DNA of 63,477 nt from contig DULG01000004.1 of the NCBI GenBank assembly GCA_012840485.1, positions 1-63,477 of the forward strand. Reading direction: 5' to 3'. The notes below the pieces were generated by a model. That model was given only the letters and a program-made list of their open reading frames with translations, made no database searches and had not been told where the DNA came from. The stretch's first letter is position 1; every line of letters starts with the position of its first letter. The DNA is from Clostridia bacterium (GTDB taxonomy: Bacteria; Bacillota; Thermoanaerobacteria; Thermoanaerobacterales; Thermoanaerobacteraceae). Of this stretch, positions 33,184-63,329 are shown piece after piece. The translations under genes and the position numbers were made by a program.

Positions 33184-33211
33184 CCCAAACACTCCCTTCT
33201 ATTCCTTTACT

Positions 33212-38865: not shown

Positions 38866-38866
38866 A

Positions 38867-40165: not shown

Positions 40166-40209
40166 AATTTTACCACTCCCTGTTGGAATTTTTACATTTA
40201 CACCCATTT

Positions 40210-40250
40210 TATGTAACCTCTCAAGTTAAAGAAACTTGAGAGGTTACATA
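40210..40250 (-). terminator. Intercistronic hairpin between kdgT and the acid-sugar kinase
   Basis: A perfect 18-base-pair inverted repeat (arms 40210-40227 and 40233-40250) with a five-base loop, 17 bases after the permease stop and about 45 bases before the kinase start. There is no T-run, so a role in message stability or unequal expression is more likely than full termination. Confidence 0.75.
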
Positions 40251-40267
40251 ACTAATTGCATAATAAA

Positions 40268-41230
40268 CTAGACCGTTTTATTGTTTAATATACCAACTCG
40301 TTTTGCCCACCAAGAAGTTACAATAGGTACCAAAATTGCCGTTACTACTACAGAAGAGGCTACTATAGCTGTAGCAGCAGGAGCTACGGGTGCATAAACG
40401 GAATTAGCTGCTGCTACTATAGCTGGTACTGCCGCAGCATTCCCAGCAGTTGATGCTGCAGCTAAACCTGCTATTCCATTGCCTCCTGTTAAAACATCGG
40501 CAGCAAATAATGCTATTCCAGTAACGATAACTACTGCTATGCCTACTAAAATACCAACCAATCCGGCTTTCCAAACATTTAATAAATTTAGTCCAGCTCC
40601 AAGTGCAAAAGCAAAAAATGGTATTAATACAGGTACTGCTCTTCCTAAAAATTCTCGAAGGTCTTTATCTAAATTTCCTAAAATCATACCTATTATAAGG
40701 GGCAAAATTGCTCCTACTAGCATTTGCCAAGGAAAAGCCGACAGACCTACAACTCCTAGTGTTACCATCGTAAAGAATGGACCAGATTCCAAACTCATGA
40801 TAGAATAAGCAGCTACATCTTCTTTTTTACCAAACTGTCCCATTAAAGCCATGTATAAACCACCGTTTGTATCATTCATAGAAGCTACAATTGCAAGTAC
40901 AGAAAGGCCCGCAAATAGTCCTGAATCAATCATCCCTTCTTTCAGGAATCTGGCAGCTATAAAGCCAACAAGAGCAGCTATCGTTATTTTTGTTATCCAT
41001 AGGGCTCCGCCTTTTTTGAGTATATAAGGGGTAGATTTAAAATCAATTGTAGCACCCATGCATACATAAAAAACTGCTAAAATAGGCAAAGCACCAGTTA
41101 ATAAAGCACCTGTAAACGATCCAAATGTTTTTGCAGCATTTGGGAAAAGAGTATTAATAATTGCACCTAAAAAGAGAGGGATGATCATCATACCTCCGGG
41201 AACACGTTCCATAGATGCTTTGATCTTCAT
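40268..41230 (-). CDS. kdgT: 2-keto-3-deoxygluconate permease family transporter KdgT
   Basis: A 320-residue membrane protein with about ten hydrophobic segments and the KdgT signatures: [27 protein letters not shown] at the start, [35 protein letters not shown] and a Gly/Ala-rich C-terminal region. KdgT is a proton symporter for 2-keto-3-deoxygluconate. Here it precedes a four-carbon acid-sugar kinase, so the actual substrate may be D-threonate, D-erythronate or a related acid. A sigma-54 promoter lies 45 bases upstream. Confidence 0.88.
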
Positions 41231-41274
41231 TTAAACTCCTCCTTCTCAAATATCTAATTTCACTAAAGAAATAA

Positions 41275-41291
41275 AGCAAATCTTATGCCAA
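41275..41291 (-). promoter_or_regulatory. Sigma-54 promoter of the kdgT operon
   Basis: On the minus strand TTGGCATAAGATTTGCT matches the -24/-12 consensus (TTGGCAC, five bases, TTGC) with the invariant GG and GC separated by exactly ten bases. It lies upstream of kdgT and directly downstream of the gene for a sigma-54 activator, which supports function. Confidence 0.85.
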
Positions 41292-41359
41292 CCTAAAAAC
41301 GCATTATTTTCAATATTATTTCTCTATCATTTTTTATTTTGCAACACTTATATAAAGTA

Positions 41360-41400
41360 AAATAAGCATATTGATGCATATTGCAACAATATGCTTATTT
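41360..41400 (-). terminator. Terminator hairpin overlapping the activator stop codon, possible activator site
   Basis: AAATAAGCATATTG and its complement CAATATGCTTATTT form a 14-base-pair stem that includes the TAA stop of the sigma-54 activator gene and ends in a T-rich stretch. The loop repeats the theme (ATGCATATTGCAA). At 80-125 bases upstream of the -24 element, the same palindromes could serve as the enhancer site for the activator. Another TTGCAACA lies at 41338-41345. Confidence 0.65.
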
Positions 41401-43275
41401 TCTTTTTAATTTTCTCCACAAAGTGCTCCTATTTATACCAAGTATCTTAGCAGCTTTAGTTAAATTTCCATTACATTTACTAACTATGTTATCTATATAA
41501 ATAGTCTCAATTTCTTTTAAACTCATAAACGATGATAGTAGCTCAACGTGTTTGTGCGCTCTATTGTATTCTGTTTCTTCAATTTTTACATCTTTCAATT
41601 CAATTATATTCCCTGTACTTAAAATTACAGCTCTTTCAATTATTCCTTTTAATTCTCGTACATTACCCTTATAATAATACTCATTTAAATATTCAATAGC
41701 CATGTCATATATATCTTCTATGTTCTTACCGTATTTCTGAGAATATTTTTTGGCAAAATATCTTGCAAGTAAAGCTATATCTTCTCGCCGTTGATTTAGA
41801 TCAGGGATAGTCAAGGTTAGTATATTTATTCTATAATACAAATCTTCTCTAAATTTACCTTCATCAACCATTTTCTTAATGTTTTTGTTTGTTGCAGAAA
41901 TTATCCTAACATTAACAGGTATTACTTTATCGTCGCCAATCCTCATCACTTCTCCTTCTTCTATTACTCTTAAAAGCCTTGCTTGATACTCAAGGGGAAT
42001 TTCACCAATTTCATCGAGAAAAATAGTTCCCCCGTGAGCCAACTCAAACAATCCAGGTTTACCATTTTTACGAGCCCCAGTAAAAGCTCCTTCCGCATAT
42101 CCGAATAATTCACTCTCGAGTAGATTTGGAGGTATAGCCGCACAATTTATTGCTACAAACGGACCACTTGCTCTATTACTCGCATTATGGATACTTTGAG
42201 CAAAAAGTTCTTTACCTACTCCCGATTTACCAAGAATTAGCACAGGAGAATCAACAAGCGCATATTTTTTTGCTCTCCTAATACATTCTTCCATTTGAGT
42301 ACTTTTATATAAGATATCTTTGAAGGTATATTTTGCTATAAAACCTTTTTTTGTCAATTCATATCTTATCTTTTTTTCTAATTCCTGAATTTGTGTTACA
42401 TCTTGAAATGTTGCTACAACACCTTCTACTTTATTGTCTACGATTATTGGTACTCTATTTGTAACTATTTTTTGATTTTTTATATCTTGCAACTCACCTA
42501 TTTCAGCATAACCACTTTTTAAGACTTCCAACATTCTGGTATTTGGTATAATTTCCTCTACCCTTTTCCCTAATACATCTTTAGCTGCTAAATTAAATAT
42601 TTTTTCAGCCATTGTATTAAATGTTGTTATATACCCTTCTTTATCAATTGAGATAATTCCATCATGTACAAAGTCCATTATTATCCTTATTTTTTCACTT
42701 TTCATTTTTTCTAACTTCGATACTTCCAAAATTCTTTGTGTTTCTTGAATAGCATCTATTATTGCTTCCTTCCCTGATGTTATAAAATAGCTTTTATACC
42801 CATATTTTTTTGCGCTTTTATGTCCTATAGCATCTCCTACAATAACAGTAGCCCCTTTTTTAATTAATTCCAATACTAATTCTGGAGCTCTTTTTTCCGA
42901 ATCAAAAACCACTTTTTCAATATTAAGCTTTAATAACTCTGCAATCGTTTCACTTCTATCAACAATATTTTCATAACCAGCTATACCAATCTTACCTTTG
43001 TAATCTATTAAATCTTTGAATGCCCTCAGTATATCAAATGAGCTAATTTTAATTTCAACAACAGGAATATTTACTGCTTCTTTTATCATTTTATATGTAC
43101 CACCACGAGATATAATAATTTGGGCCCCATTCTTGACACATTCTTTTGCAACCTCTACACCTTCACTTAAATCTCCCATTAGTATGTCAACATTAGTAAA
43201 TTTATTCTCATTAACAACTTTTTTTGCTACTTCAGCTAAATCTTCAAAAGGTGCAATTAAAACTATATCTTTCAT
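41395..43275 (-). CDS. Sigma-54-dependent activator with PrpR-type sensor domain
   Basis: A 626-residue regulator. A PrpR-N-like domain (about 1-190; MGDLSEGVEVAKECVKNGAQIIISRGGT) is followed by a PAS domain (about 200-310; HDGIISIDKEGYITTFN). The AAA+ domain has Walker A GKSGVGKELFAQSIH and the sigma-54 contact GAFTGA (as EGAFTGARK), with Walker B GGTIFLDEIGE. The C-terminus is a Fis-type HTH (GNLTKAAKILGINRSTLWRKLKRK). It should activate the sigma-54 promoter just downstream, probably in response to a small metabolite bound by the N-terminal domain. Confidence 0.92.
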   Translation of the reverse strand: MKDIVLIAPFEDLAEVAKKVVNENKFTNVDILMGDLSEGVEVAKECVKNGAQIIISRGGTYKMIKEAVNIPVVEIKISSFDILRAFKDLIDYKGKIGIAGYENIVDRSETIAELLKLNIEKVVFDSEKRAPELVLELIKKGATVIVGDAIGHKSAKKYGYKSYFITSGKEAIIDAIQETQRILEVSKLEKMKSEKIRIIMDFVHDGIISIDKEGYITTFNTMAEKIFNLAAKDVLGKRVEEIIPNTRMLEVLKSGYAEIGELQDIKNQKIVTNRVPIIVDNKVEGVVATFQDVTQIQELEKKIRYELTKKGFIAKYTFKDILYKSTQMEECIRRAKKYALVDSPVLILGKSGVGKELFAQSIHNASNRASGPFVAINCAAIPPNLLESELFGYAEGAFTGARKNGKPGLFELAHGGTIFLDEIGEIPLEYQARLLRVIEEGEVMRIGDDKVIPVNVRIISATNKNIKKMVDEGKFREDLYYRINILTLTIPDLNQRREDIALLARYFAKKYSQKYGKNIEDIYDMAIEYLNEYYYKGNVRELKGIIERAVILSTGNIIELKDVKIEETEYNRAHKHVELLSSFMSLKEIETIYIDNIVSKCNGNLTKAAKILGINRSTLWRKLKRK

Positions 43276-43495
43276 AAAGATCCTCCTTTTATAATTTTAG
43301 AAAATTCTCAAAAAAATTATTTTTTGTTATTCTTTATTGCTTGTAGTTAATTATAAATCCTATATAGTAATAATACAAGCATAAGTCATATAAAAAGTAT
43401 CTTCTAAAGTTTCTTAATCGAGTAGGAGCTGAATAATTATTTTATTCAGCGTCCTCTCACACCACCGTACGTACCGTTCGGTATACGGCGGTTCA

Positions 43496-44900
43496 TTAGG
43501 AATTGTGTACAATTAGATATCTTTGGGATAAACTCTTATAACCTATGCTTTCAAAGTATTTATTTGTAAGAGTCTTATTTAGGATTGGGCTATTGGATAT
43601 TCTCCAGTAGCCTTTCCTTGTATTGGCGTATTCCCAGGCTTTTTGTTCGGAGTTTTACTAAGTTATCATGCTTCGTTTTTATCTTCTTCCATTGTTTCCA
43701 TATACATGCCCTTAGTCTTCGCCTTATCCATTCGTCAAGGGTTTTCATTATGCTTTTCGCGTCTGCTAATCCAAAATAGTTGACCCATCCTGTTGTTATT
43801 TGATTTAGTCTTTTTATTCTGTTTTCCATGCTTATTCCCTTGTTCCGATTGGTTATTTCTCTTACTTTTTCCTTAAACCTTTTGATGGATTTTTCATGGA
43901 TTCTTATTCTTACTTCGTTTTCTTTTGTATAGAATGAAAATCCAAGAAATTTTCTTCTCCATGGTCTATCTACAGCACTTTTTGCTTCGTTGACTTTTAG
44001 TTTTAATTTGCTTTCTATGAATTTCTTTATGCTCTTCATTACTCTGTTTCCTGCAGACCTGCTTTTTACATATATGTTGCAGTCATCTGCATATCGGCAG
44101 AATTTATGCCCTCGTTTCTCAAGTTCTTTGTCTAGTTCGTCCAACATTATGTTTGCTAATAGTGGACTTAATGGCCCTCCTTGGGGTGTCCCTTCTTCTG
44201 TTGATACTTTGATTCCGTTTATCATTACTCCTGATTCTAGGTATCTTCGTATTAACTTTAGTACCCTTTTATCTCCTATCCGCTTTTCTAGTTTGGACAT
44301 TATTATGTCGTGGTTTACTCTGTCAAAGAACTTTTCTAAGTCCATATCTACAACCCATGTGTATCCTTCATTTATGTATGCTTCTGCGGCTTTTATTGCG
44401 TCTTTTGCACTGCGTCCTGGTCTGAATCCATAACTGCTATCTGAAAATGTATGGTTGTAGACTCTATTTAGTATTTGGGCTATTGCTTGTTGTATTAGTC
44501 TGTCTAGTACTGTAGGTATTCCTAGTAGTCTTACTCCTCCATCTGGTTTGGGAATTTCTACTCTTCGCACTGGTTGTGGTTTGTATTTCCCCTCCAGCAG
44601 TTGTTGTTTTATGGTTGCCCAGTTTTCTTTGAGATACGGTAGAAGTTCATCTACTCCCATCCCATCGACTCCATGGCTTCCTTTATTTGCAACAACGCGC
44701 TTGTATGCTGCTTCCATGTTCCCTCGTTCTACTATCATTTCAAGCATCTTGCCGGTATATCTTTGTACCTCGTTTCTTCCATCTTCCGACGCCGATGATA
44801 TACTATGCACTTCCGTTGTCTTTTGAAATTCCATTTCTCTATTCAACGGATAGCCTCTTTGTTGAGTTGTCTGCAGTCTCTGCATATCTTTCGAGTCCAT
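43496..44900 (-). pseudogene. ltrA: Group II intron reverse transcriptase/maturase, frameshifted near the C-terminus
   Basis: The main frame (436 codons, 43590-44900) contains the RT domains: GVDGMGVDELLPYL, PKPDGGVRLLGIPTVLDR, SYGFRPGRSAKDAI, the catalytic FCRYADDCNIY (YADD) and the maturase domain X (ITTGWVNYFGLADAKS). At about 43651-43655 the frame breaks: the family's conserved tail continues in another frame as SEQKAWEYANTRKGYWRIS followed by NSPILNKTL and ends at a TAA at 43496-43498. The frame actually read instead ends abnormally (RQYKERLLENIQ). The junction suggests a small deletion, perhaps 8 bases, in the linker after NLVKL. The start ATG has AGGAGG 13 bases upstream. Confidence 0.88.
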
Positions 44901-45319
44901 AAGATTTCCAAAACCTCCTAACGTTCGGTCCTTCCTTATCTATTCATGTCTAGATAAGTACTATGACCTCTGCTGACTTCTCAAGGTTCAGCCATACATC
45001 ACTGCATGGGTTGTCACTTCAGATTTTACTCCCATGACTTATCCTTGAGACCTCCCCGGGTAAGAACGATAACTTTCATCTCATATATCTGCCAGATTTA
45101 CTATATGGGATTCGGGTAGTGTTGGACTTCGTTTTGTTACGCAAACTCATCCATCCCAATTCAGCCTCTTATCTGGTTCTTGTTCATCAGACCGAGATTT
45201 TGCCTTAAGCTTCCTTCAGATTCCACCTCACGATGGACACCCTTGCTCTTGGCTAGTGGTTCCCACTACCAAGCCCACAGCGGACTTTCACCGCCTAGTT
45301 ATCGCCCATGCCGGGCGCA
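44901..45319 (-). other. Structured 5' region of the group II intron (domains I-III)
   Basis: These 419 bases precede the maturase start and contain no gene of their own. The GC-richer, pairing-rich sequence (AGGCGGTGAAAGTCCGC near the 5' end, and CCTCACGATGG/CCATCGTGAGG-type blocks) is expected of the intron RNA core. Confidence 0.7.
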
Positions 45320-45325
45320 CATAAA

Positions 45326-45365
45326 TAAAAAGCACCCTTATAATCGAAAAAGGATGCTTTTTTAT
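45326..45365 (-). terminator. Rho-independent terminator of the HPS/PHI operon and group II intron target
   Basis: On the minus strand AAAAAAGCATCC pairs with GGGTGCTTTTT (one G-U) around a 14-base loop, followed by ATTTAT and then the first base of the group II intron. It lies just after the stop of the HExxH protein gene. Confidence 0.85.
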
Positions 45366-45372: not shown

Positions 45373-45906
45373 TTACCATATATCATAAAATTCTTTCACA
45401 AAAGCATGAGCTGCTATTTCACTAAAAGCTTTCAATTTTACCTTAACTTTAAAAAAACCTAATGTGGTATAAGTTTTTATTTTTTCATTTGTTAATCCAA
45501 TATAATTAATCTCTAAATAATGAAAATATTCATGGCACAAAAATAATTTTACAACTTTGTTATAATTGCACCAATCGAAAAATTTTTCAGGTATCGATGG
45601 AATAAATATTTCTTTTATTGGCTTTTCATATAAAATAATTTTATTTTTCTCTTTGTTATATTCGCTAAAGACTATATAATTAAAGATATAATTCTTTTTA
45701 CTGATTTCAACCATAATATTTTCTTCCGAAATCAAATTTATTATGTCATTTGTTTTCAACTTTTTGGCTTCTTTAATTCCTCTTTCCCAAACTATCTCTA
45801 ATACTTTGTCACTTTCATCAGATGAAAATACTTTCTTGCTATAATTACCAAATTTTAATTCCTGTTCTATTAACTGTTGTTTATCTAAAAAAACAGATGG
45901 TATCAC
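45373..45906 (-). CDS. Putative zinc metallopeptidase-like protein (HExxH)
   Basis: A 177-residue soluble protein of no family I recognise. It has one HExxH motif, HEYFH at residues 125-129 in a hydrophobic helix (LFLCHEYFHYLE), and a downstream Glu in AFSEIAAHAF that could be the third ligand, the layout of small zinc proteases. It is the last gene of the permease/HyuA/kinase/HPS/PHI operon, 24 bases after hxlB. A proteolytic role in a sugar operon is unexpected; it could also be a metal-dependent hydrolase of another kind. Confidence 0.65.
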   Translation of the reverse strand: MIPSVFLDKQQLIEQELKFGNYSKKVFSSDESDKVLEIVWERGIKEAKKLKTNDIINLISEENIMVEISKKNYIFNYIVFSEYNKEKNKIILYEKPIKEIFIPSIPEKFFDWCNYNKVVKLFLCHEYFHYLEINYIGLTNEKIKTYTTLGFFKVKVKLKAFSEIAAHAFVKEFYDIW

Positions 45907-45929
45907 TTTATTTCCCTCACTTTATATAC

Positions 45930-46478
45930 TTACTCTAAATTTAAGTGTTGCTTAAATGCCATGTCATTCGTAATACTATTTTTCATACTTAACATCAGAC
46001 AAAGACCATCTAAAACTATATGAACACTTTGATCAAATAATGAACTTAAAAGCTGAACAGATTTTCTTTTTTCTCCTGTATCATATTTAGTTGTAGCTGG
46101 TACAATAAGTACCTCATCTGAAATTTTTGCTAATAGCGAATCAGCTTTACTTGTTACAGATAAAACTTTGCAATTCAGTCCTTTTGCCACTTTTGCATTC
46201 TCTACTACAAATTTTGTACTTCCTGAACCAGAAATCGCAAAAAATATGTCACCATTTTGTAAAGATGGTGTTACAGTCTCTCCAATAACATACACCTCAT
46301 ATCCTAAATGTTTAAGTCTCATAGCAAAAGCTTTGCCCATTAATCCTGATCTACCTTCACCATCAACAAAAATTCGCTTATTCATGTCAAAATAATTAGA
46401 TATTTCTTTCATCTGATTTTCATCAACCTCACTAACTACAGATTCTATTTCTCTTAAAATTGTAACTAAAATTCCCAT
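45930..46478 (-). CDS. hxlB: 6-phospho-3-hexuloisomerase
   Basis: A 182-residue SIS-domain protein: KRIFVDGEGRSGLMGKAFAMRLKHLGYEVYVIGE at the phosphosugar site, IFFAISGSGSTKFVVENAKVAK, VLSVTSKADSLLAKISDEVL. The length and the VDGEGRSG and SGSGST blocks match PHI enzymes, which convert hexulose 6-phosphate to fructose 6-phosphate in the ribulose monophosphate pathway. It follows hxlA by 27 bases. Confidence 0.9.
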   Translation of the reverse strand: MGILVTILREIESVVSEVDENQMKEISNYFDMNKRIFVDGEGRSGLMGKAFAMRLKHLGYEVYVIGETVTPSLQNGDIFFAISGSGSTKFVVENAKVAKGLNCKVLSVTSKADSLLAKISDEVLIVPATTKYDTGEKRKSVQLLSSLFDQSVHIVLDGLCLMLSMKNSITNDMAFKQHLNLE

Positions 46479-46505
46479 ACTGATCCTCTCTTTTCTAATA
46501 ATTTG

Positions 46506-47150
46506 TTAGTTTATTTTTTTTATATTCTGCATTAAAGAATAAAATTCCTTCGCTGCTTTTTGCATATCAAAAGCTTTCGTAATGGCAGAACCAATTACAA
46601 CAATTTCTGGTTTTATTATTCTGGTTTTATTTAATTTATTTAGTAACTCTATATTTATTCCCCCCGCAATCGCTAAATGAGGTAACTCACTAATATATAG
46701 CTTCATTTTCTGAAAATAACTTTCAAAGTCCTTTTCAATTTCATCTTTAGCAATATGAATACAAAATATAGCTTCTTTAAATTTCTTCAAATTTGTAATA
46801 CGGCTCTCATTTGTTTCCATTAAATCTATCATAATAGATTTTTTATATTTTTGTGCCACATCATAACACAAAGAAATAGTATTCAATGGAGCAACCCCCA
46901 TTACCGTTGCTATATCTGCCCCTGCACTATAAGCAGCTTTAAATTCATACTCTCCTTCATCCATAGTTTTTAAATCCGCCAATATTAGCTTATCAGGAAA
47001 TTGTTTTCTCATTTTCCCCACAGAACTCATTCCATAATCTTTTATAAGTGAAGTTCCAACTTCTATTATATCAATATAATCATATACCTTTTCAACTATT
47101 TTTATAGCACTTTCTATATTTATCCTATCTAATGCAAGTTGTATTTTCAT
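46506..47150 (-). CDS. hxlA: 3-hexulose-6-phosphate synthase
   Basis: A 214-residue orotidine-decarboxylase-fold protein: IQLALDRINIESAI, IEVGTSLIKDYG, ILADLKTMDEGEYEFKAAYSAGAD (metal and catalytic Asp/Lys block) and LAIAGGINIELLNKL with a C-terminal VVIGSAIT phosphate loop. HPS condenses formaldehyde and ribulose 5-phosphate, or runs in reverse to make ribulose 5-phosphate. 3-Keto-L-gulonate-6-phosphate decarboxylase shares the fold; the adjacent PHI gene favours HPS. It begins seven bases after the sugar kinase gene. Confidence 0.85.
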   Translation of the reverse strand: MKIQLALDRINIESAIKIVEKVYDYIDIIEVGTSLIKDYGMSSVGKMRKQFPDKLILADLKTMDEGEYEFKAAYSAGADIATVMGVAPLNTISLCYDVAQKYKKSIMIDLMETNESRITNLKKFKEAIFCIHIAKDEIEKDFESYFQKMKLYISELPHLAIAGGINIELLNKLNKTRIIKPEIVVIGSAITKAFDMQKAAKEFYSLMQNIKKIN

Positions 47151-47157
47151 AAAATTC

Positions 47158-48111
47158 TCACCCTTCTCTTATACTATGAGTCATTATGAACTTTTCTAGA
47201 TTTTCTCTATTGGGTAATCCATCATTATCGCCTGGAAACATTATAACTCGCGCTCCAATAGCATTACCTCTTTTTACAGCTTCACGCAATGATAAATTTT
47301 CTAATAAGCCACTTATAACTCCAACGGCAAATCCATCACCAGCCCCTACAGTATCCACTATTTGTTCAACTTTAAATCCACTCACTGTATATTCTTCAGT
47401 AGGAGTTTTAACAAAAGCCCCTTTTTCTCCTGTTTTAATTATTACGATTTTCGTCCCCTTTTCTAAATAAAATGAAGCTATATCATTTAGTTCATTATAA
47501 CCTGTAAGAATTTTCCCCTCTTCATATCCGGGTAAAACTATATCGCATCTAAAAGCAATATCATTTAATATACTCCTCATTTCCTCTTCGCTTTTCCATA
47601 ATTGCTTACGAATATTAGGGTCAAACGAAATAAGTATATTCTTTGTTTTAGCTATCTCAACAATGTTATATATGGTTTTTCTGAAACTTAAAGATAAAGC
47701 AGGAGGAATGCCAGTCAAATGAATGTGATTTACATCATCAAAATTAATTTCTTTTAAATCATTTTCCTGTATGTGAGAAGCAGCAGACCATTTCCTAAAG
47801 TATACAACTTCAGGGTCTCCAATACGTGTTTTAGATTTAAGTTGAAAACCTGTTGGATATTCATTATCAAATTTTATATAAGAAACATCAATATTTTCAT
47901 TTACTAAAAATTTATATATATATTTGCCAAAAGGGTCATCTCCAAGACGTGTTATATAACTCACTTTATGACCGAGTCTTGCAAGTCCTATTGCGACATT
48001 AACTTCTGATCCTGCCAAAGCCTTGGTAAAATTATATACTTCCTCTAAAGGTCCCTCTTCGTTTGCTATAAACATAACCATTGGTTCTCCAATAGTAATT
48101 ATCCTTCCCAT
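47158..48111 (-). CDS. PfkB-family sugar kinase, KdgK-like
   Basis: A 317-residue ribokinase-type enzyme: ITIGEPMVMFIANEEGPLE, AGSEVNVAIGLARLGHKVSYITRLGDDPFG (PfkB signature 1), ISFDPNIRKQLWKS and DTVGAGDGFAVGVISGLLE (signature 2 with catalytic Asp). DPNIR is typical of 2-keto-3-deoxygluconate kinases. The KDPG aldolase gene upstream in the same region supports that role, but HPS/PHI neighbours leave other sugar substrates open. It lies 19 bases after the HyuA-like gene. Confidence 0.87.
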   Translation of the reverse strand: MGRIITIGEPMVMFIANEEGPLEEVYNFTKALAGSEVNVAIGLARLGHKVSYITRLGDDPFGKYIYKFLVNENIDVSYIKFDNEYPTGFQLKSKTRIGDPEVVYFRKWSAASHIQENDLKEINFDDVNHIHLTGIPPALSLSFRKTIYNIVEIAKTKNILISFDPNIRKQLWKSEEEMRSILNDIAFRCDIVLPGYEEGKILTGYNELNDIASFYLEKGTKIVIIKTGEKGAFVKTPTEEYTVSGFKVEQIVDTVGAGDGFAVGVISGLLENLSLREAVKRGNAIGARVIMFPGDNDGLPNRENLEKFIMTHSIREG

Positions 48112-48130
48112 TTATATCACTCCTCAATTT

Positions 48131-50260
48131 TTATATATCATTTTTAGCTCCTACAATAATAATTTCTTCTTTTTCATCAAGCAAATCAATTTCCGTTGCA
48201 ACTACTTTTATTAATTGATCTTTGCTGTTCATACCAGAATAATCAATTAAACGCCCTCCTATACATATGTAAATATCGGGATATAATATCGTATCGCTCT
48301 TATATAAACTTGCGCTATCCCATACCTCATTTAAATCTTCGTAAAATGTAGTTTTGTTAGACTTTTTAACAATTCCATCTCCCCTTTGGACTTTGATAAA
48401 TCCCTTTTTATCTATAATTCTTATTTGTTTTTTACCTTTATCATTGTTTTTATCAGAAAAAACAAATAATCCGAAAGTTTTTGTTTCTAAATTAACATCG
48501 TCTATTGCAACATTCATAGATTTTGCCGCAATATCTTTTGCTTCTTCTTCAGTACACTCTTTTAACAAATCTGTTGTTTTTACTTCAGTAGATCCTAATG
48601 CAATAGCTGTAACTTTTTGCGTTTGTGAATCTATTTCAATAAAGACTTCTACACTTTCCGGAACAGCTCCACTATTTATTGCCGCCTGTTTTGCTTCATT
48701 TTTAATAGCCGCTATATCTTCTTTAGAAGGATTAGGAATTACTCGTTCTACTACATCTCGTACCATCGCTAAAGCTACTCCTATTGATGAAATTACCTCT
48801 GCATTTTCTGGTATTTTATATTCTAACTTCATTTTATTGGAAACATATGGAATTAGAGCCGCAGCACCACCTCCAACTCCTACTAAAATTAATTGATCTT
48901 TTTCAAGCTTATATCTTAACGCAAGTTCTTCTATAACAGGTAATATTTTTTGTGATGATTTTTCTAAAATTTGCTTCGCAGTTTCTTCTACAGAAAGTCC
49001 TAATATCTTTGCCAATGGTTCAATTGCTTTATAACTTGATGTATAATTTCCATATGCAAAATGTTCAGGTTTTACAAGTCCTAATACATTTGCAGCACAC
49101 GTATTAGTTATTGCTATTCTCTTCCCATTTTTTAGTTTTACTGCAACATAATCTGCAGGATCCCCTTCTCTTGGACTAAAAAATTCTATTTCTGGATCTT
49201 CAATCTCCTCCTCTGGAGTAAAAGCTGCATAAGGCAATCCTGCTATATGAGCACTTCTTGGCCCAACATCTACAATTTTATTTTTAGAAACCCTAACCAT
49301 ACTTCCTCCTGCCACACCTAAAACACGAACATCTAAAGAATTTATATAAGTTCTATGCCCACCAACAATAGCATAATCAATCGCTGGTCTTCCATTTTTT
49401 ATAACACCAATATTAGTACTTGTCCCTCCGACTTCAAAATATATACCATTAGATGCCCGTAAATACATTAAAGCTCCTATAACACTTGCAGCAGGTCCAG
49501 ACAGCATAGTCAACACCGGCCTCTTTTTCATTTCATTTATATCCATTACCCCACCATCACCGCGCATTATCATTAAAGGTACTTTTATTCCAGCTTTTTT
49601 TACACTTTCTTCTGTACTATTCGCTGTATCAAGCATCTTGGGTAAAATACTTGCATTTATAGCTGCAGTCCTCGTCCTTATTGTTAACCCATACAATTTA
49701 CTAATATCTGACGCTACAGTAGCCGGTACACCCATTTCTAAAGCAACCTGTTGAACCATTTTTTCTTCTTTAATACTATCAACTCCAAAAGCTTTACTTG
49801 CAACAATTACTTTAGCACCCATTTTTAATAATTCAGTTATTGCTTGAACAATATTTTCACGGGAAAGGTTTTTTGATTTTTCATACGTATGATAAATTTT
49901 TATAAATTTGCCTGTTCCTAGTGGAATGTCTCCAATATTTGTTTGTCGTTTAGCCAAAAAGCCTTCAATTCCTCCACCGCCTATTCCCAAAATCCCGACA
50001 GATGATACATCTCCTTCCAACAATGCATTGGTAGCTTGAGTTGTGCTATGAGCTATGAAAATAACATTTTCAGGATTAATATTGTTTTCTGTTAAGCATT
50101 TCTGGAAAGCTTGTATTACTCCCGCAGAAACTCCCATAGGATGAGAATGAGTAGTCATTACAGAAGCTTTGCCTATTATTTCATGGGTTTCATTATCAAT
50201 AGCTACAGCTTTTGTATGCGTCCCTCCAACATCAATTCCCATTCGTATCATACTTTCTCT
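48131..50260 (-). CDS. Hydantoinase A / 5-oxoprolinase family ATPase, without a HyuB partner
   Basis: An ASKHA-fold enzyme: MGIDVGGTHTKAVAID (phosphate 1), IAHSTTQATNALLEGDVSSVGILG, MRGDGGVMDI, LSGPAASVIGALMYL, YFEVGGTSTNIGVI and VGVGGGAAALIPY. The last 200 residues form an extension with no clear match. HyuA subunits normally act with a HyuB subunit in ATP-dependent opening of hydantoins or lactams; no HyuB is encoded here. I chose a TTG start nine bases after AAAGGAG; the frame extends 11 codons upstream across that site. A hairpin separates it from the permease gene. Confidence 0.82.
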   Translation of the reverse strand, partial: RESMIRMGIDVGGTHTKAVAIDNETHEIIGKASVMTTHSHPMGVSAGVIQAFQKCLTENNINPENVIFIAHSTTQATNALLEGDVSSVGILGIGGGGIEGFLAKRQTNIGDIPLGTGKFIKIYHTYEKSKNLSRENIVQAITELLKMGAKVIVASKAFGVDSIKEEKMVQQVALEMGVPATVASDISKLYGLTIRTRTAAINASILPKMLDTANSTEESVKKAGIKVPLMIMRGDGGVMDINEMKKRPVLTMLSGPAASVIGALMYLRASNGIYFEVGGTSTNIGVIKNGRPAIDYAIVGGHRTYINSLDVRVLGVAGGSMVRVSKNKIVDVGPRSAHIAGLPYAAFTPEEEIEDPEIEFFSPREGDPADYVAVKLKNGKRIAITNTCAANVLGLVKPEHFAYGNYTSSYKAIEPLAKILGLSVEETAKQILEKSSQKILPVIEELALRYKLEKDQLILVGVGGGAAALIPYVSNKMKLEYKIPENAEVISSIGVALAMVRDVVERVIPNPSKEDIAAIKNEAKQAAINSGAVPESVEVFIEIDSQTQKVTAIALGSTEVKTTDLLKECTEEEAKDIAAKSMNVAIDDVNLETKTFGLFVFSDKNNDKGKKQIRIIDKKGFIKVQRGDGIVKKSNKTTFYEDLNEVWDSASLYKSDTILYPDIYICIGGRLIDYSGMNSKDQLIKVVATEIDLLDEKEEIIIVGAKNDI

Positions 50261-50292
50261 CAACTTGCAACACTCCTTTAAAAATTGTATCA

Positions 50293-50336
50293 TATGGCTA
50301 CAGCCTTTCGAATAATTTCAAAAGGCTGTAGCCATA
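50293..50336 (-). terminator. Intercistronic hairpin between the permease and HyuA-like genes
   Basis: A perfect 16-base-pair inverted repeat (arms 50293-50308 and 50321-50336) with a 12-base loop starts four bases after the permease stop. There is no clear T-run. It is one of five similar elements following first transport genes. Confidence 0.75.
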
Positions 50337-50340
50337 GTAT

Positions 50341-51615
50341 TTATTTAAACATATTAACTGCAATGATTTCATTTATAATTACCACAAGCCAAGCCCATAC
50401 AACACCCGTTTTTAAGAAATCCTTTATGCTTAATTTCGTATAGTTTATCGCCCATAAGTTCCATGATTGAGTAGGACATGTAGAAATAGCCATTGATATG
50501 GTAGGCACGTAAATCAAAGGCAAAAGTAGTTGCGGTGAAAACAAGTTTAAACCTGTTAATATTGCTATTGTAGCGCTACCAGCGCCCCATGCCATAAGAG
50601 GTCCTCTAAATAATGCAAGTGGTGCAAGCATACCTATCGCAATGGCAATTATAAGCGCATTTTTAGGCATTATAGGTGAAAGCATGGTCTGGAAAATATG
50701 TGCATTTTTACCGGCTGCTGAACCAAACATAGCTAGTGTAAACAACATACCAAGCAACAAACCGACATCTGCTACACCATCATACAGTGTTTTTTGTATC
50801 AAGCTCTCTGCAGTTTTCCAAGAAGAAAACTTCTTTGTCACCAGTAATGCTAAAAATATAGCTAATAACATTGCAGGAATAGGTTGCCATTTAAAAGCTA
50901 TTGCCATGATAACAGGAATAATAGGTATTATAAAACTAATAGCTGGAACATTAGTAGTGTCAATTTGTGGTTCTGTAGGCTGAGCCCATGCATAATTCAC
51001 TTTACCTTTTCGTAAATTAAATGTTAACATTAACATTATAAATAAGATCTGTATTGCCATCGCAATGAAGCCAAATTTAATATACGGGCCATTATAAGCA
51101 ACATCAGGGAAGAACAATTGTATTTGTTTAAACAAAACTATGTTTACATACATACCTGCACCAACTGATAGCGTAAATGAGGATACTGCTACATTTTTTG
51201 GAACACCAATCGAAAGTAATATCGGTAATACAATTACACCAATTGCTATTACTGCTCCAACTCCAAAAGTACTTGTAAATATAAAAGTTGTAACCAACGA
51301 AACTAAGATAGTTGTTAATAATGGACGATCGCCGCCAAGTTCTACTGTCCTTCTTATAATAGCTCCAGCAATACCCGTTTCAACTAATACACGTCCAAAC
51401 CAACTACCAAATATAACTACCGTAGCTGTCATTCCGTATGTCTCTGCAGATTTCTCAAAGACTTCACTGATTGCTATATCATATGGTATTCTTCCTATTA
51501 AAACCCACAAAAAAGCCATTACTAAGAAACCTATCATTAAATTTCCGCCGCGAGTAGCATAATAAATAAGCAAGAAATAGGTGATTAGCAACAAAATACC
51601 TACCCACATATCCAT
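50341..51615 (-). CDS. Multi-pass permease of the ion-transporter type, organic-anion/hydantoin candidate
   Basis: A 424-residue membrane protein with about eleven or twelve hydrophobic segments: GILLLITYFLLIYYATRGGN at the start, a TAT...FGSWFGRVLVETGIAGAIIRRTVEL region, and a second repeat with LLGMLFTLAMFGSAAGKN and FRGPLMAWGAGSATIAIL. The inverted-repeat appearance is like the GntP/CitMHS/NhaC ion-transporter superfamily. No substrate is established. Position before a HyuA-like enzyme suggests a small cyclic amide or organic acid. The ribosome binding site AGAGGGGGAG is preceded directly by a 17-codon open frame. Confidence 0.75.
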   Translation of the reverse strand: MDMWVGILLLITYFLLIYYATRGGNLMIGFLVMAFLWVLIGRIPYDIAISEVFEKSAETYGMTATVVIFGSWFGRVLVETGIAGAIIRRTVELGGDRPLLTTILVSLVTTFIFTSTFGVGAVIAIGVIVLPILLSIGVPKNVAVSSFTLSVGAGMYVNIVLFKQIQLFFPDVAYNGPYIKFGFIAMAIQILFIMLMLTFNLRKGKVNYAWAQPTEPQIDTTNVPAISFIIPIIPVIMAIAFKWQPIPAMLLAIFLALLVTKKFSSWKTAESLIQKTLYDGVADVGLLLGMLFTLAMFGSAAGKNAHIFQTMLSPIMPKNALIIAIAIGMLAPLALFRGPLMAWGAGSATIAILTGLNLFSPQLLLPLIYVPTISMAISTCPTQSWNLWAINYTKLSIKDFLKTGVVWAWLVVIINEIIAVNMFK

Positions 51616-51630
51616 GTTTTTCTCCCCCTC

Positions 51631-51684
51631 TTAAAAGATTGATAAATTTGAAAAACTTTGAAAACCTTGAATTTGGCTGTTCAT
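51631..51684 (-). CDS. 17-residue leader-type open frame with a strong ribosome binding site
   Basis: An ATG six bases after AAAGGAGGTGAG, the best ribosome binding site of the neighbourhood, opens a 17-codon frame (MNSQIQGFQSFSNLSIF) that stops 15 bases before the permease ATG and within two bases of the permease ribosome binding site. The layout is that of a leader peptide or a translationally coupling small frame. The sequence has three Gln, four Ser and four Phe; no runs of regulatory amino acids are evident. Confidence 0.5.
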   Translation of the reverse strand: MNSQIQGFQSFSNLSIF

Positions 51685-51765: not shown

Positions 51766-52518
51766 TTATACAGCTGATAATTTTTCTATAGATTCTTTTA
51801 TCACATCAATGGGAGAAGTTCCCCCTGGAAATTCAAGTCCAATAAGAATGTGTGATGGAAACATTTTAAGTACTTGATCCCATGGCACAATACCCTTGGA
51901 CAGTGAAACTGTTTTAGGTCCAAAATTTTCTAAAATCACGTCCTTTAAATGAATATAGTTGATAAATCTACCTATTTTCTTAGCATTATCAATGGGATTT
52001 TCTCCAACCCAGTACCAATTGCCTATATCGAAAGTTCCTTTTATATTCAGTTCATATTTATTGCACCACTCGAAAAATTCTATCAAATTAACAACTTTTC
52101 CACTTAATTCAGTTTGATCGTTTTCAATTGTTATTTGAATATTATATTGAGCCAACAATTTTTTAAGCTGAATAACGAGATTCAAATTATTTTTATCAAA
52201 TTCCCCCAATGAAAACTTAATCATCTTTGCATCTATACACATAGCTTCATTGATATATTGTTCTATTATCGCCATGGGTAGTGTTTTATTAACAAATAGA
52301 TACGCAGGAACAGAATAAATTAAGTGAAAATTATATTCCTTAGCTAACTCTTTAATCTCCTTTAATTCTTCTTTTTTTTCTTTCAAAAATTCTTCTCTTA
52401 TTTCCACGTTTACTATACCTAACTTACTAATATCCTTTAAATATTCGTACTGTTTTTTACCTTCAATTAATTGTTCCTCAAAAAGCTTCATTGTTACCAC
52501 AATTCTATTCTTGTTCAT
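51766..52518 (-). CDS. Sugar phosphate isomerase/epimerase, TIM barrel
   Basis: A 250-residue xylose-isomerase-like protein: NVEIREEF near the start, IKFSLGEF, ITIENDQTE (Glu), GTFDIGNWYWVGEN (Asp), YIHLKDV (His, Asp) and a final IGLEFPGGT (Glu). It follows the KDPG aldolase gene by 16 bases, in the unit whose leader holds the LacI-type operator. It may epimerise or dehydrate a sugar acid feeding the aldolase. Confidence 0.83.
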   Translation of the reverse strand: MNKNRIVVTMKLFEEQLIEGKKQYEYLKDISKLGIVNVEIREEFLKEKKEELKEIKELAKEYNFHLIYSVPAYLFVNKTLPMAIIEQYINEAMCIDAKMIKFSLGEFDKNNLNLVIQLKKLLAQYNIQITIENDQTELSGKVVNLIEFFEWCNKYELNIKGTFDIGNWYWVGENPIDNAKKIGRFINYIHLKDVILENFGPKTVSLSKGIVPWDQVLKMFPSHILIGLEFPGGTSPIDVIKESIEKLSAV

Positions 52519-52534: not shown

Positions 52535-53164
52535 TTATTTAAAATTTTTTACTGCTTCAATTAACTTTTCTATCCTTTCTTCTAACAAATATAAATTATT
52601 TAAATTAATTCCTCTTGTTAAATATCCTCCTACTCCCACAGCATAAGCTCCATTTCTAAACCATTCTGCTATATTTGAATTATCAACACCACCTGTAGGC
52701 ATAAATTCAACAAAAGGAAATGGTCCCTTTAAGGATTTAATAAAAGCTGGTTTTAAAAATTCACCCGGAAACAACTTTATTATATCCGCTCCCATTTGAT
52801 ATGCATTATATATTTCAGTCGGTGTTGATGCTCCCATAGAAAAAAATATATTATTCTCTTTACAATAAGTAGCAACCTCTTCTATAAGGCAGGGAGTTAC
52901 TATAAAATCAGCTCCTTGTTCTATTGCTTCCTTTGCTTGAGATAGATCTAATACAGTACCTGCACCTACTATTGAATCTGGTAAAGATTTTTTTAATTCA
53001 TGTATTAATAAACGTGCATTTTCAACTGTATAAGTTATCTCAATAATGTCTATTCCTTTTTGAAAAATCGTTGTTGATATTTCTTTTGCTAATTCTTTAT
53101 TTTCAATTCTTATCACTGCAACAATTTGGTTTTTGAACATTTCTTTTAAAAGTATTTTATCCAT
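52535..53164 (-). CDS. eda: KDPG / 4-hydroxy-2-oxoglutarate aldolase
   Basis: A 209-residue class I aldolase: IVAVIRIENKELA, IIEITYTVENA (catalytic Glu), IVGAGTVLDLSQAKEAIEQGADFIVTPCL, ADIIKLFPGEFLKPAF (Schiff-base Lys) and PTGGVDNSNIAEWF. It cleaves 2-keto-3-deoxy-6-phosphogluconate to pyruvate and glyceraldehyde 3-phosphate. It is the first gene after the lacI-type gene, with an operator-like palindrome 20 bases before its start. Confidence 0.92.
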   Translation of the reverse strand: MDKILLKEMFKNQIVAVIRIENKELAKEISTTIFQKGIDIIEITYTVENARLLIHELKKSLPDSIVGAGTVLDLSQAKEAIEQGADFIVTPCLIEEVATYCKENNIFFSMGASTPTEIYNAYQMGADIIKLFPGEFLKPAFIKSLKGPFPFVEFMPTGGVDNSNIAEWFRNGAYAVGVGGYLTRGINLNNLYLLEERIEKLIEAVKNFK

Positions 53165-53183: not shown

Positions 53184-53205
53184 ACCGATTTACTAAATCG
53201 ATTAA
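53184..53205 (+). promoter_or_regulatory. LacI-type operator O1 upstream of eda
   Basis: ACCGATTTACTAAATCGATTAA is an imperfect palindrome around CGATTTACTAAATCG, 20 bases upstream of the eda start codon. It matches the second site upstream of the regulator gene at 18 of 22 positions. Confidence 0.75.
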
Positions 53206-53240: not shown

Positions 53241-54278
53241 TTATATTGTTAATACTGTAGAACCCCTTATAACTAAATTTGCGGATAAAGTTATTAATTT
53301 GGGCTTTGAATTTCGTTTTTGCTTTATTCTCGATATCAGACGCTTTGCTGATTCTACTCCTACTTGATAAGATGGCTGTGATATCGTTGTAATTCCAGGA
53401 GGTATTAAAGCTGCCCAGCCCCAATCGTCATATCCACAAACTCCAATATCTTGAGGTATTTTTAAATTTAATTTGCTAATTCCCTGCAGCAAGCTTAATA
53501 ACACTACTCCATTAACTCCAAAAGCTGCTACTTTTTCTTTTTCGCTTTTTTCAAGTAATTGTCTTAGTCCTTCTATAACAGAAGTTTCTCTTTCTGTATC
53601 AATAACAATTATCATATCATTAACATCTCTATTTAAATATTTCAAACAAGTATCCAAAAAAGCTCTTTTTCTTTCTAAACGGGTACTAATATTTTTTATT
53701 TCTTCAGTAAAAAAACCTATTTTCATAAAGCCATTGTCAATCAAATGTTTAATTAATTCGGAAGTTACTTCATAATTATTGACTACTACCGTATCAAATT
53801 TAAATGTTTTAATGCTTCTATCAGCTAAAACTATAGGCATCCCATTATTTCCAACTTCTAATAAGAATTCATCAATTTCACCTGTGGTATTTATTATTAA
53901 ACCTTCTACTCTTTGGTCAATCATAGAGAGAATATATTCTTTTTCTTTTTTAGGATCATTGTCAGTATTTGCAATAATGATATTGTAATCGTGTTGTTTG
54001 CATACATCTCCAATTCCACGCACTAATATAGATGAAAAAGGATTACTTATATCAGCTACTAATACCCCAATTAAATGGCTTTTATTAGATTTAAGACTTC
54101 TAGCTAATTTATTAGGACGATAATCAAGTTCTTCAATTACTTTTTTAATACGTTCTCTTGTTTCACTAGACATATATTCATAATGTCCATTAATATAACG
54201 TGATATTGTTGTTTTAGAAACACCAGCTTTTTGAGCTACATAGTCTATTGTAATACTAAACCTTTTAGTATTGCTCAT
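53241..54278 (-). CDS. LacI-family transcriptional regulator
   Basis: A 345-residue repressor. The N-terminal HTH and hinge read TIDYVAQKAGVSKTTISRYIN ... RPNKLARSLKSNKSHLIGVLV, followed by a sugar-binding-type effector domain (IGVLVADISNPFSSILVRGIG, INTTGEIDEF, VCGYDDWGWAALIPPGITTI). It likely represses eda and the isomerase gene and also itself through the two matching operator sites. The effector is probably a sugar acid or its phosphate. Confidence 0.93.
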   Translation of the reverse strand: MSNTKRFSITIDYVAQKAGVSKTTISRYINGHYEYMSSETRERIKKVIEELDYRPNKLARSLKSNKSHLIGVLVADISNPFSSILVRGIGDVCKQHDYNIIIANTDNDPKKEKEYILSMIDQRVEGLIINTTGEIDEFLLEVGNNGMPIVLADRSIKTFKFDTVVVNNYEVTSELIKHLIDNGFMKIGFFTEEIKNISTRLERKRAFLDTCLKYLNRDVNDMIIVIDTERETSVIEGLRQLLEKSEKEKVAAFGVNGVVLLSLLQGISKLNLKIPQDIGVCGYDDWGWAALIPPGITTISQPSYQVGVESAKRLISRIKQKRNSKPKLITLSANLVIRGSTVLTI

Positions 54279-54314: not shown

Positions 54315-54336
54315 GAAATCAATTAACTAAATCGGT
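54315..54336 (-). promoter_or_regulatory. LacI-type operator O2 upstream of the regulator gene
   Basis: Minus strand ACCGATTTAGTTAATTGATTTC, about 37 bases upstream of the regulator start codon. It shares the ACCGATTTA block, the AAT core and the GATT end with the site before eda, which suggests autoregulation. Confidence 0.7.
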
Positions 54337-55390: not shown

Positions 55391-57091
55391 TTAACTCTCA
55401 CAAACTATATAAACCATATCCCAAACTATTAATTGTGGTATAACAAATCTAATAGCTTTCCCATGTTCATGAGGTACATATTCATAATCCAGTTTCTTCG
55501 GTTTACCAGAATCGATGTCTGGTGATGCTAAATATATACCTTTTACATTTTCTACTACAAGAGCAATAACTTCGATATTATTTATAATTTTGGATCTCTT
55601 TTTTTTCCCTTCATTCCACTTTGTGCTTTCTAGTCCAGTAAAGTTAATAAAATGTATTATTTTATATCCCGGTTTTTCTTTTATTAAAGTCCATACGCTA
55701 TCCTTTTCAGCTTTTGGTGAAAACTTTGTACCTTTAAATACATACTCACCATTTATTCCTCCTGTATGTGTCATAGTATTATCAACAATATTAAAATCAT
55801 ATAAAAGTTCTTCATATCTTACAATGAAATCATAATAATTTCTTAGCTCTCTAACGAATCTCTCATTGTCTATCATTGTATAATTAGGATAATAGGCCTC
55901 TGTTAATATGCCGTTTAATTCACCAAGCAAAAGATGAAAGCCGCCACTTGCAAATATTGTAGCCATCATCATAATTGTCGCATTTTCTGCATATTCTACT
56001 GGGACATTTGATCTTTTTGAAAAAGGCTCCATGTATGCTGCAAGAATAACCTGCTTATCAGGAGCATATTTTTTCGCATTTGTAATTAAATTATATAAAT
56101 CCTGATATGTATCATTTGGAGGCCATACTTCTATATATACAACATCCTGTTTCGCACTTGCTACTGTATCAATAGGCCAGTTATTTACAGCATTAAAAAT
56201 TAAAGCAGGTTTATATCCATTTTTTTCGATATACTCCATTGTGTCATTAATTAACACAGGAAATTCATTCCTTAGTCTTCTTATCTTTTTCACACCACCA
56301 GCAATACTTAAAGCCTCTTTGGGGAAACCGTACTGGTCCATGTGTATACCATCAAATCCAAATTTAATAGCCTTTAAAAATTCAGATATTATGTGATTAT
56401 GCCATCCAGATTCCTTTGATATATCCATAATGTAAATCAAATTTATAAGGTCAAAAACAGTTCCATCATTTTTATACAGTGCCCAATCTTTATGTTTATC
56501 ATAAAATTCTTTTTCACAACCGTAAACAGCACCATAAGCAATAGCTGTCATACCAAATTTATGCGCATAATTAATTTTTTGCTTTACTACATCAATTAAT
56601 AGGTTTCTACCAAGAGGATCAGCAAAACTATTAGTCGGGGGTAACAGTTCATGATGTCTATACATCCAGTCATAAAACTGTACTACATTTATATGATATT
56701 TGTTCAACTGTACTAAATCTTTATCATCGTTTTTATCTCTATCAAAAAAATCCGATAGAAAACCGTATCTCGGTGCTAATTTCCATGACTCGGTAATATC
56801 AAACGATGTTGATAAACTGTTAATCTTTTTATTATTCCTGTACAAATCCACTTCAACCCCAAAGCCCATCATCTCTTTTTCGTTTTTTTCTATATTAAAC
56901 TCAAAAACAACTTTTTCGTCATGCAATTTTAATTCTTTTTCTGTTTTATAAAGTATGTCATGAAAATTTAAAACAGTACACGATACAGTATAGTTACCTA
57001 AATCATCCGTTACCTCAAATGTTGCAATAATTTCAACTTTTTCACCAGGCCTATATTGTGATTTTGACGGATACACATCTTTAATCCTCAA
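55391..57091 (-). CDS. GH66 dextranase / cycloisomaltooligosaccharide enzyme, cytoplasmic
   Basis: A GH66 protein of about 566 residues without a signal peptide. N-terminal Ig-like sheet (KVEIIATFEV ... GFGVEVDLYRN), then the catalytic barrel: RYGFLSDF, NVVQFYDWMYRHHELLPP, GFDGIHMDQYG (nucleophile Asp) and VVYIEVWPP (acid/base Glu). GH66 enzymes cut or cyclise alpha-1,6-glucans. The TTG start (reading MRIKDVYPSKSQ) seven bases after AGGCAGGTG gives only an 11-base overlap with the GH15 gene; the farthest ATG would overlap it by 44. It probably degrades imported isomaltooligosaccharides or cyclic forms. Confidence 0.88.
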   Translation of the reverse strand: MRIKDVYPSKSQYRPGEKVEIIATFEVTDDLGNYTVSCTVLNFHDILYKTEKELKLHDEKVVFEFNIEKNEKEMMGFGVEVDLYRNNKKINSLSTSFDITESWKLAPRYGFLSDFFDRDKNDDKDLVQLNKYHINVVQFYDWMYRHHELLPPTNSFADPLGRNLLIDVVKQKINYAHKFGMTAIAYGAVYGCEKEFYDKHKDWALYKNDGTVFDLINLIYIMDISKESGWHNHIISEFLKAIKFGFDGIHMDQYGFPKEALSIAGGVKKIRRLRNEFPVLINDTMEYIEKNGYKPALIFNAVNNWPIDTVASAKQDVVYIEVWPPNDTYQDLYNLITNAKKYAPDKQVILAAYMEPFSKRSNVPVEYAENATIMMMATIFASGGFHLLLGELNGILTEAYYPNYTMIDNERFVRELRNYYDFIVRYEELLYDFNIVDNTMTHTGGINGEYVFKGTKFSPKAEKDSVWTLIKEKPGYKIIHFINFTGLESTKWNEGKKKRSKIINNIEVIALVVENVKGIYLASPDIDSGKPKKLDYEYVPHEHGKAIRFVIPQLIVWDMVYIVCES

Positions 57092-58172: not shown

Positions 58173-58189
58173 TTCAATTCCTCCAAAAA

Positions 58190-60022: not shown

Positions 60023-60061
60023 TTTTTAATCCTCTCCCATATTTATGAAACTCTATTATGC

Positions 60062-60895: not shown

Positions 60896-60910
60896 AAATA
60901 TTGCCCCTTT

Positions 60911-61867: not shown

Positions 61868-61873
61868 CTCCTT

Positions 61874-61917
61874 TTTGTAAGAAGGATTAAGAGTACACTC
61901 CTAATCCTTCTTACAAA
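61874..61917 (-). terminator. Intercistronic hairpin between binding-protein and MalF-type genes
   Basis: A perfect 16-base-pair inverted repeat (arms 61874-61889 and 61902-61917), seven bases after the binding-protein stop. The downstream ribosome binding site (AAAAAGGAG) starts directly after the stem, so there is no terminator T-run. This is the same position as the stabilising element known between malE and malF. Confidence 0.78.
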
Positions 61918-61924
61918 ACTAATT

Positions 61925-63214: not shown

Positions 63215-63329
63215 TCTAAATTTCCCCCTTTTATTAATCAAATTTATAAGTCAAATATTTATTTAATTTGTTCCCTTTACCCCTCCCTTCAACTTTTTTC
63301 AGTGAATGAAGTATTAAAAATAAACTCAC

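Follow-up and report, generated by a model that had tools for sequence, protein, structure and literature searches.

What is degraded by an operon that places relatives of the two enzymes of formaldehyde fixation, hexulose-6-phosphate synthase (HPS) and 6-phospho-3-hexuloisomerase (PHI), beside a sugar kinase, a permease, a HyuA-like protein and a putative metalloprotease? The question is raised by a 63,477-nt stretch of DNA (contig DULG01000004.1, positions 1 to 63,477; hereafter the window) from a Clostridia bacterium of the Thermoanaerobacteraceae (GCA_012840485.1). The draft genome to which the window belongs measures 2.65 Mb in 91 contigs and is 100% complete. Counted from the gene of a LacI-family regulator, the genes encode a 2-keto-3-deoxy-6-phosphogluconate (KDPG) aldolase, a KguE-like TIM barrel, a permease, a HyuA-like protein, a kinase, HPS-like and PHI-like proteins and a protein with an HExxH motif, followed by a terminator. 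We class the operon as a variant of the kgu system that carries a HyuA–zincin module. Its kgu-type part would break down 2-keto-D-gluconate, or a closely related 2-keto-hexonate, with no need of a reductase, a reading that we regard as reasonably probable. The observation made in a first-pass annotation of the same DNA was mostly right: an operon of uncommon composition for the uptake, phosphorylation and breakdown of a sugar-like acid is supported, as is the lone HyuA, and the HExxH protein beside it proved to be a conserved partner.

The kgu-type module and a proposed 2-ketogluconate route

The PfkB kinase (47158–48111, minus strand, as are all genes of the operon) had 51% identity with the sugar kinase encoded in the kgu operon of Enterobacter and was placed by phylogenetic reconstruction inside the KguK clade (support 99/99). 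The solved 2-keto-3-deoxygluconate (KDG) kinases, the KdgK-type kinases of other HyuA loci and the paralogue from the uronate cluster of the window genome (44% identical) fell outside this clade, and the former label of a KdgK-like kinase is replaced by that of a 2-ketogluconate-type kinase. The best match of the xylose-isomerase-type TIM barrel (51766–52518) among PDB sequences was 1yx1 (E 5e-22), the structure of PA2260, which is the KguE encoded by the kgu operon in Pseudomonas aeruginosa. The barrel was also 29% identical to the epimerase, of the type annotated as KguE, of the Enterobacter kgu operon. The CitMHS/IT-superfamily-like permease (50341–51615) itself had no match in Pfam, NCBIfam or PDB sequences and is named through its homologues only. 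It was 47–50% identical to permeases of HyuA-free kgu-type operons (48–50% for those on plasmids), and the homologue from Tetragenococcus scored 31.5 bits to PF03600, just under the cut-off of 31.9; we infer that it imports a sugar acid. An Eda-like aldolase of the KDPG/2-keto-4-hydroxyglutarate type (52535–53164) was recognized by PF01081 (153.9 bits) and, above its cut-off, by TIGR01182.

Most of the kgu-type operons found were without HyuA and most HyuA loci were without kgu genes, so two conserved modules have been joined in this operon, one of kgu type and one made of permease, HyuA and HExxH protein. The kgu-type set (LacI, KguE-like protein, transporter, kinase, HPS-like and PHI-like proteins, Eda) occurred without HyuA or HExxH protein on plasmids of Tetragenococcus halophilus, Lacticaseibacillus paracasei and Loigolactobacillus coryniformis, there with a permease of the window type, and, without Eda, in one further Bacillota genome. 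In Bacilli, HPS and PHI genes shared an operon with KguK and a KguT-like carrier in 14 of 16 loci, plus two loci more, and this carrier was 62–68% identical to the major facilitator superfamily (MFS) carrier of the Enterobacter kgu operon. No KguD reductase was encoded in the window operon or in the operons of these kgu-type relatives. Eda was missing from several kgu-type operons, in which HPS and PHI were constant. The permease–HyuA–HExxH set was found without kgu genes across Bacillota and on haloarchaeal plasmids. Both sets also occurred together in a decayed copy in a congener (G012) and in Candidatus Bariatricus faecipullorum; thus the merger was not a one-off. The single unit of the first-pass annotation is therefore to be read as two, since most relatives carry one set only.

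In the decaying copy of the congener, the permease gene was truncated, the front genes were gone and the HExxH gene was frameshifted; the HyuA, kinase, HPS and PHI proteins were 96–99% identical to those of the window. On the mobilizable plasmid pHDC of Tetragenococcus halophilus, a kgu-type operon and the genes of histidine decarboxylase (histamine formation) lay a few kb apart, separated by transposases.

The HPS-like protein (46506–47150), a member of the HUMPS superfamily, and the PHI-like SIS isomerase (45930–46478) were not placed among the formaldehyde enzymes. The operon HPS proteins formed one clade (support 100/100) apart from formaldehyde HPS, and the operon PHI proteins formed one clade (99/98) apart from HxlB-type PHI. 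Lysine occupied position 139 (Arg139 of the 3-keto-L-gulonate-6-phosphate decarboxylase (KGPDC) UlaD) in 23 of 25 operon HPS proteins and in none of seven HPS references, which had Tyr, Leu, Thr or Ile. In the PHI proteins the Glu of the SGSGE motif was lost in 25/25 operon sequences (SGSGS in the window) and LFE was changed to LFD, again in 25/25; both Glu residues were kept in all six PHI references. That an acidic side chain was lost and a basic one gained would suit a substrate carrying an additional carboxylate. This argument is suggestive and not a proof, because the HPS-like protein keeps HPS-type residues at positions 112, 169 and 192. The UlaD signature is E112, R139, T169 and R192, and the window protein has D, K, A and S at these positions, as compared with a UlaD alignment row of which the first half was checked, some reference rows, 3F4W among them, being of presumed function. 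Membership of the HPS-like protein in KGPDC was rejected on these residues, and its closest neighbours in the tree were HPS, not UlaD.

In Pseudomonas, KguK yields 2-keto-6-phosphogluconate, which KguD reduces to 6-phosphogluconate, and KguE participates with no reaction assigned to it (PMC11678583). In the window operon, the permease would import the sugar acid and the KguK-like kinase would phosphorylate 2-keto-D-gluconate to 2-keto-6-phosphogluconate. This compound is fructose-6-phosphate with an oxidized C1, and PHI normally moves the keto group of a hexulose-6-phosphate between C2 and C3. By the chemistry of PHI on fructose-6-phosphate, the PHI-like protein would give 3-keto-6-phosphogluconate through a C2-to-C3 shift of the keto group. 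HPS acts through the enediolate of ribulose-5-phosphate, and UlaD decarboxylates 3-keto-L-gulonate-6-phosphate. The HPS-like protein is predicted to decarboxylate the beta-keto acid 3-keto-6-phosphogluconate to D-ribulose-5-phosphate and CO2 by means of an HPS-type Mg-stabilized enediolate. Ribulose-5-phosphate would then enter the non-oxidative pentose phosphate pathway, of which a transaldolase is encoded in the genome. The HPS-like and PHI-like proteins would in this way stand in for KguD, sparing one NAD(P)H and making the route redox-neutral. KguK of C. necator is reported also to phosphorylate KDG (PMC6651773), which would give a role to Eda: it would probably remove the KDPG produced by the same kinase. 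Gene content, clade membership, conservation and the absence of HyuB (see below) come from the sequence, and we infer from these all reactions and substrates. In the open-access literature we found no paper linking 2-ketogluconate with HPS/PHI or ribulose-5-phosphate, a statement that does not cover one review on acetic acid bacteria in which the words 2-ketogluconate and hexulose both occur.

Several observations weigh against this route. A member of the KguD-like reductase family (46–47% identity) is encoded elsewhere in the genome, and KguT is not in the operon. Other 2-keto acids may be substrates of the kinase. The proposed reactions need neither Eda nor KguE. The HPS-like protein retains the HPS-type D112, A169 and S192 as against E, T and R of KGPDC, and both proteins score above the cut-offs of the formaldehyde enzymes (TIGR03128, 214.3 bits against 200; TIGR03127, 198.5 bits against 160).

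The same scores, which are above the NCBIfam cut-offs for the ribulose monophosphate pathway, and the preserved Asp/Lys/His active-site set of HPS would be expected of a true HPS/PHI pair that fixes formaldehyde onto ribulose-5-phosphate or releases it from fructose-6-phosphate to provide pentoses, the sugar-acid neighbours being incidental. Such a pair is improbable here: the two separate clades, the charge-changing substitutions and the association with kgu genes in many families speak against it, and no annotated formaldehyde-producing enzyme adjoined the genes in the loci that were read. Pentose supply does not need HPS and PHI either, because 6-phosphogluconate dehydrogenase is encoded in the genome along with transaldolase. 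We rejected the formaldehyde reading on the separate clades, the altered residues and the kgu gene context, and with it the earlier suggestion of a hexulose-phosphate route via formaldehyde enzymes. About equally improbable is the degradation of KDG or uronates, in which the kinase would form KDPG, Eda would cleave it and the HPS-like and PHI-like proteins would act on a side product. The presence of Eda inside the operon, a gene of a KdgT-type permease 4 kb downstream, the reported ability of KguK to phosphorylate KDG (PMC6651773), and the occurrence of KDG kinase and Eda in other HyuA loci are in line with this explanation. It is opposed by the position of the kinase in the KguK clade, by the constancy of HPS and PHI in comparison with the several kgu-type operons that have no Eda, and by the uronate-type cluster of the genome, which has its own kinase. 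We therefore consider the 2-ketogluconate route the better reading of the kgu-type module.

The HyuA-like protein and its HExxH partner

The HyuA-like ASKHA protein (48131–50293) matched PF01968 (225.9 bits) and PF05378 and belonged to a clade of its own. Its structural model, with a predicted local distance difference test score (pLDDT) of 84.7, matched the folds of acetone carboxylase beta, N-methylhydantoinase and CapA. The first-pass annotation had assigned to this protein a novel C-terminal extension of 200 residues. The 40 aligned members of the clade were 709–876 aa long, nearly all of them 709–751 aa, which is the usual size of HyuA. The HyuA fold spans residues 12–579, and only the terminal ~140 residues look clade-specific; the idea of a novel added extension was rejected on these grounds. 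The protein was correctly called a lone HyuA type: no HyuB (PF02538) was found anywhere in the 100%-complete genome, the same search being positive in control genomes, and the case of a HyuB encoded elsewhere in the genome, which would have made an ordinary N-methylhydantoinase, was not found. With the motif definitions of PMC8453981, the ATP-site motifs DxGGTxTD and D(V/I/M)GGT were partly kept in the clade, with changes of D to K, D to E and D to N; the last D of DxGGTxTD was K or H in many members. Two more HyuA paralogues were present in the window genome, at the ends of contigs C4 and C87. As the contig ends truncate both at residue 343, they are probably near-identical copies that broke the assembly.

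The gene of the HExxH protein (45373–45906) was found near the HyuA-clade gene in 34 of 37 loci with enough sequence to be assessed, the frameshifted copy of the congener being left out; the exceptions were loci L021, L069 and L077. The putative metalloprotease noted earlier in the same unit is thus a conserved partner of the HyuA clade. Residues H125, E126, H129 and E163 were invariant in 23 aligned homologues, haloarchaeal ones included, in agreement with an HExxH...E gluzincin. The AlphaFold2 model of the protein (pLDDT 90) had no significant match with Foldseek by itself, and VIA-align matched it to the IrrE/PprI metallopeptidase core (Z 10.1, 2.5 Å over 109 residues).

Caprolactamase binds ATP and phosphorylates through its CapA subunit, and the metal site carried by CapB has been proposed to hydrolyse the activated, phosphorylated lactam and so open its ring (PMC8453981). 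With this division of labour in view, it is an attractive idea that a zincin could take over from the metal subunit. The module would make a masked substrate accessible once it has been imported, for example by the ATP-dependent opening of a cyclic amide or a similar compound, and the zincin would replace the metal-bearing HyuB subunit; such ring opening by the HyuA-like protein is one of several options. This two-part hydrolase of HyuA and zincin is a tentative prediction, held with clearly less confidence than the 2-ketogluconate route. It is weakened by GPRSAHIAG in place of the GxxPGP adenosine motif and by variable P1/P2 residues in the HyuA-like clade. IrrE-like zincins, moreover, are usually peptidases and not small-molecule amidases.

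The resemblance to IrrE/PprI (Z 10.1 over 109 residues) and the adjacency of a transporter gene in nearly all loci would also fit a regulatory pair, in which the zincin is a peptidase cleaving a repressor or a transporter and HyuA is an ATP-dependent sensor or chaperone. This explanation concerns the HyuA module only and is compatible with the 2-ketogluconate route; we consider it rather unlikely. The loci do not share one kind of regulator (LacI, ROK, GntR-like, IclR and PrpR types occur), so no constant cleavage target is seen, and a helix-turn-helix partner is missing. Lower still we rank the pathway of the first-pass annotation, in which HyuA would open an imported cyclic amide or lactone, which would then be phosphorylated and channelled via a hexulose phosphate. 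It agrees with the position of the HyuA-fold protein next to the permease and kinase genes and with the absence of HyuB from the genome, but nearly all other operons of kgu type are without HyuA, and the relatives of the HPS-like and PHI-like proteins indicate keto-acid chemistry. For the HyuA–HExxH pair we accordingly keep the two-part hydrolase as our tentative reading.

The neighbours of the HyuA-clade genes were an FAD-oxidoreductase (PF12831), a NanE-like barrel, DUF4127 and ROK regulators in one group of loci and KDG kinase, Eda, RraA-like and Ldh2-type genes in others. The substrate of the module is probably sugar-related yet not identical everywhere, because these neighbours differ by clade. 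No paper on DUF4127 or on an operon of hydantoinase, HPS and permease was found in the open-access literature. Three haloarchaeal plasmids (loci L078, L079 and L080) carried a citrate-transporter-like gene, HyuA, a small metallopeptidase gene and an FAD-dependent oxidoreductase; genes of a sulfatase and an AGE-type epimerase were near in two of them.

Extent of the operon and neighbouring DNA

All six genes listed in the first-pass annotation (permease, HyuA-like protein, PfkB kinase, HPS, PHI and HExxH protein) are real and lie, all on the minus strand, at the stated place between 45373 and 51684. The unit is longer, however, and also includes the KguE-like barrel and the Eda-like aldolase behind the LacI gene. 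Position 51684 is not the end of the unit but the ATG of a separate open reading frame (ORF) of 17 codons, and the permease starts at 51615. This ORF (51631–51684, minus), with a good Shine-Dalgarno sequence, is a possible leader and lies in the 150-nt gap upstream of the permease gene. Apart from this gap, intergenic distances were 7–76 nt across the whole unit, and 7–47 nt among the six genes. The LacI-family regulator (53241–54278, minus; Pfam LacI and Peripla_BP) is encoded by the first gene, and lacI genes also stand beside the kgu-type relatives. A 20-bp palindrome, ACCGATTTANTNAATNGATT, was matched at two sites in the window, where 0.05 are expected. These putative operators are ACCGATTTAGTTAATTGATT (54317–54336, minus), 5' of lacI, and ACCGATTTACTAAATCGATT (53184–53203, plus), between lacI and eda and 5' of the latter. 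Since the palindrome stands before lacI and again between lacI and eda, the pair favours a single predicted operon under LacI control that begins at eda. A terminator-like hairpin followed by a T-run (45332–45357, minus), read by eye, marks its end.

A group II intron (43417–45320, minus; the end at 45320 was read by eye) with an ORF for a reverse transcriptase/maturase (43590–44900) sits directly behind the terminator hairpin and parts the operon from the gene of a PrpR-like regulator. The genes at 37876–43275 (minus) encode this PrpR-like sigma-54 activator, a KdgT-type permease, a D-threonate-kinase-like DUF1537 protein and a PdxA-type dehydrogenase, a probable cluster for D-threonate or a related four-carbon acid. 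A glucosaminate-type cluster at 29861–35440 (minus) contains genes of a DgaE-type ammonia lyase, a DgaF-type aldolase and an amidohydrolase/deacetylase. Upstream of the operon, at 55391–63241 (minus), two GH66 proteins, a GH15-like protein and an ATP-binding cassette sugar importer are encoded, suggesting the use of dextran or isomalto-oligosaccharides.

Implications and comparison with known systems

If the proposed route is correct, many Bacillota genes annotated as hexulose-6-phosphate synthase or 6-phospho-3-hexuloisomerase, those on plasmids of food bacteria included, are misannotated genes of sugar-acid enzymes. The route would be a C1-oxidized mirror of the ribulose monophosphate pathway, which spares reducing power and gives ribulose-5-phosphate directly. 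The HyuA–zincin–permease module, conserved from the family of the window organism to haloarchaeal megaplasmids, is a large blank in annotation. There is a small chance that two things hold together and are both new: a redox-neutral 2-ketogluconate route, with a PHI-type isomerase and an HPS-type decarboxylase that act on C1-oxidized analogues of their formaldehyde-pathway substrates and replace the NAD(P)H-dependent reductase, and a two-part ATP-dependent hydrolase of HyuA and an IrrE-like zincin in Bacillota and haloarchaea.

The window operon resembles the kgu operon of Pseudomonas and Enterobacteria (ptxS-kguE-kguK-kguT-kguD) in its LacI-type regulator, KguE-like TIM barrel and KguK-clade kinase. 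It differs in having a CitMHS-like permease instead of the KguT-like MFS carrier that is common to its relatives (14/16), and HPS-like and PHI-like proteins instead of KguD; Eda, HyuA and the HExxH protein are added. With HxlA–HxlB, the HPS–PHI pair of the ribulose monophosphate pathway, it shares two adjacent genes of the same families that score above the NCBIfam cut-offs, and it is distinguished by the separate clades, the altered active-site residues and the neighbouring kgu genes. With UlaD and SgbH, the 3-keto-L-gulonate-6-phosphate decarboxylases, the HPS-like protein has in common the superfamily, the predicted type of reaction and a basic residue at 139, but D112, A169 and S192 are as in HPS, its nearest relative in the tree. 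Compared with the ATP-dependent lactam hydrolases HyuAB, CapAB and OplA, the window HyuA has the same fold over residues 12–579; the genome is without HyuB, GPRSAHIAG stands for GxxPGP, the C-terminal ~140 residues are different and the partner is a zincin. The HExxH protein shares the HExxH...E signature and the core fold with the IrrE/ImmA (PprI) gluzincins, from which it differs in having no Pfam match and no DNA-binding domain, in an identity of 13% and in its linkage to HyuA and permease genes.

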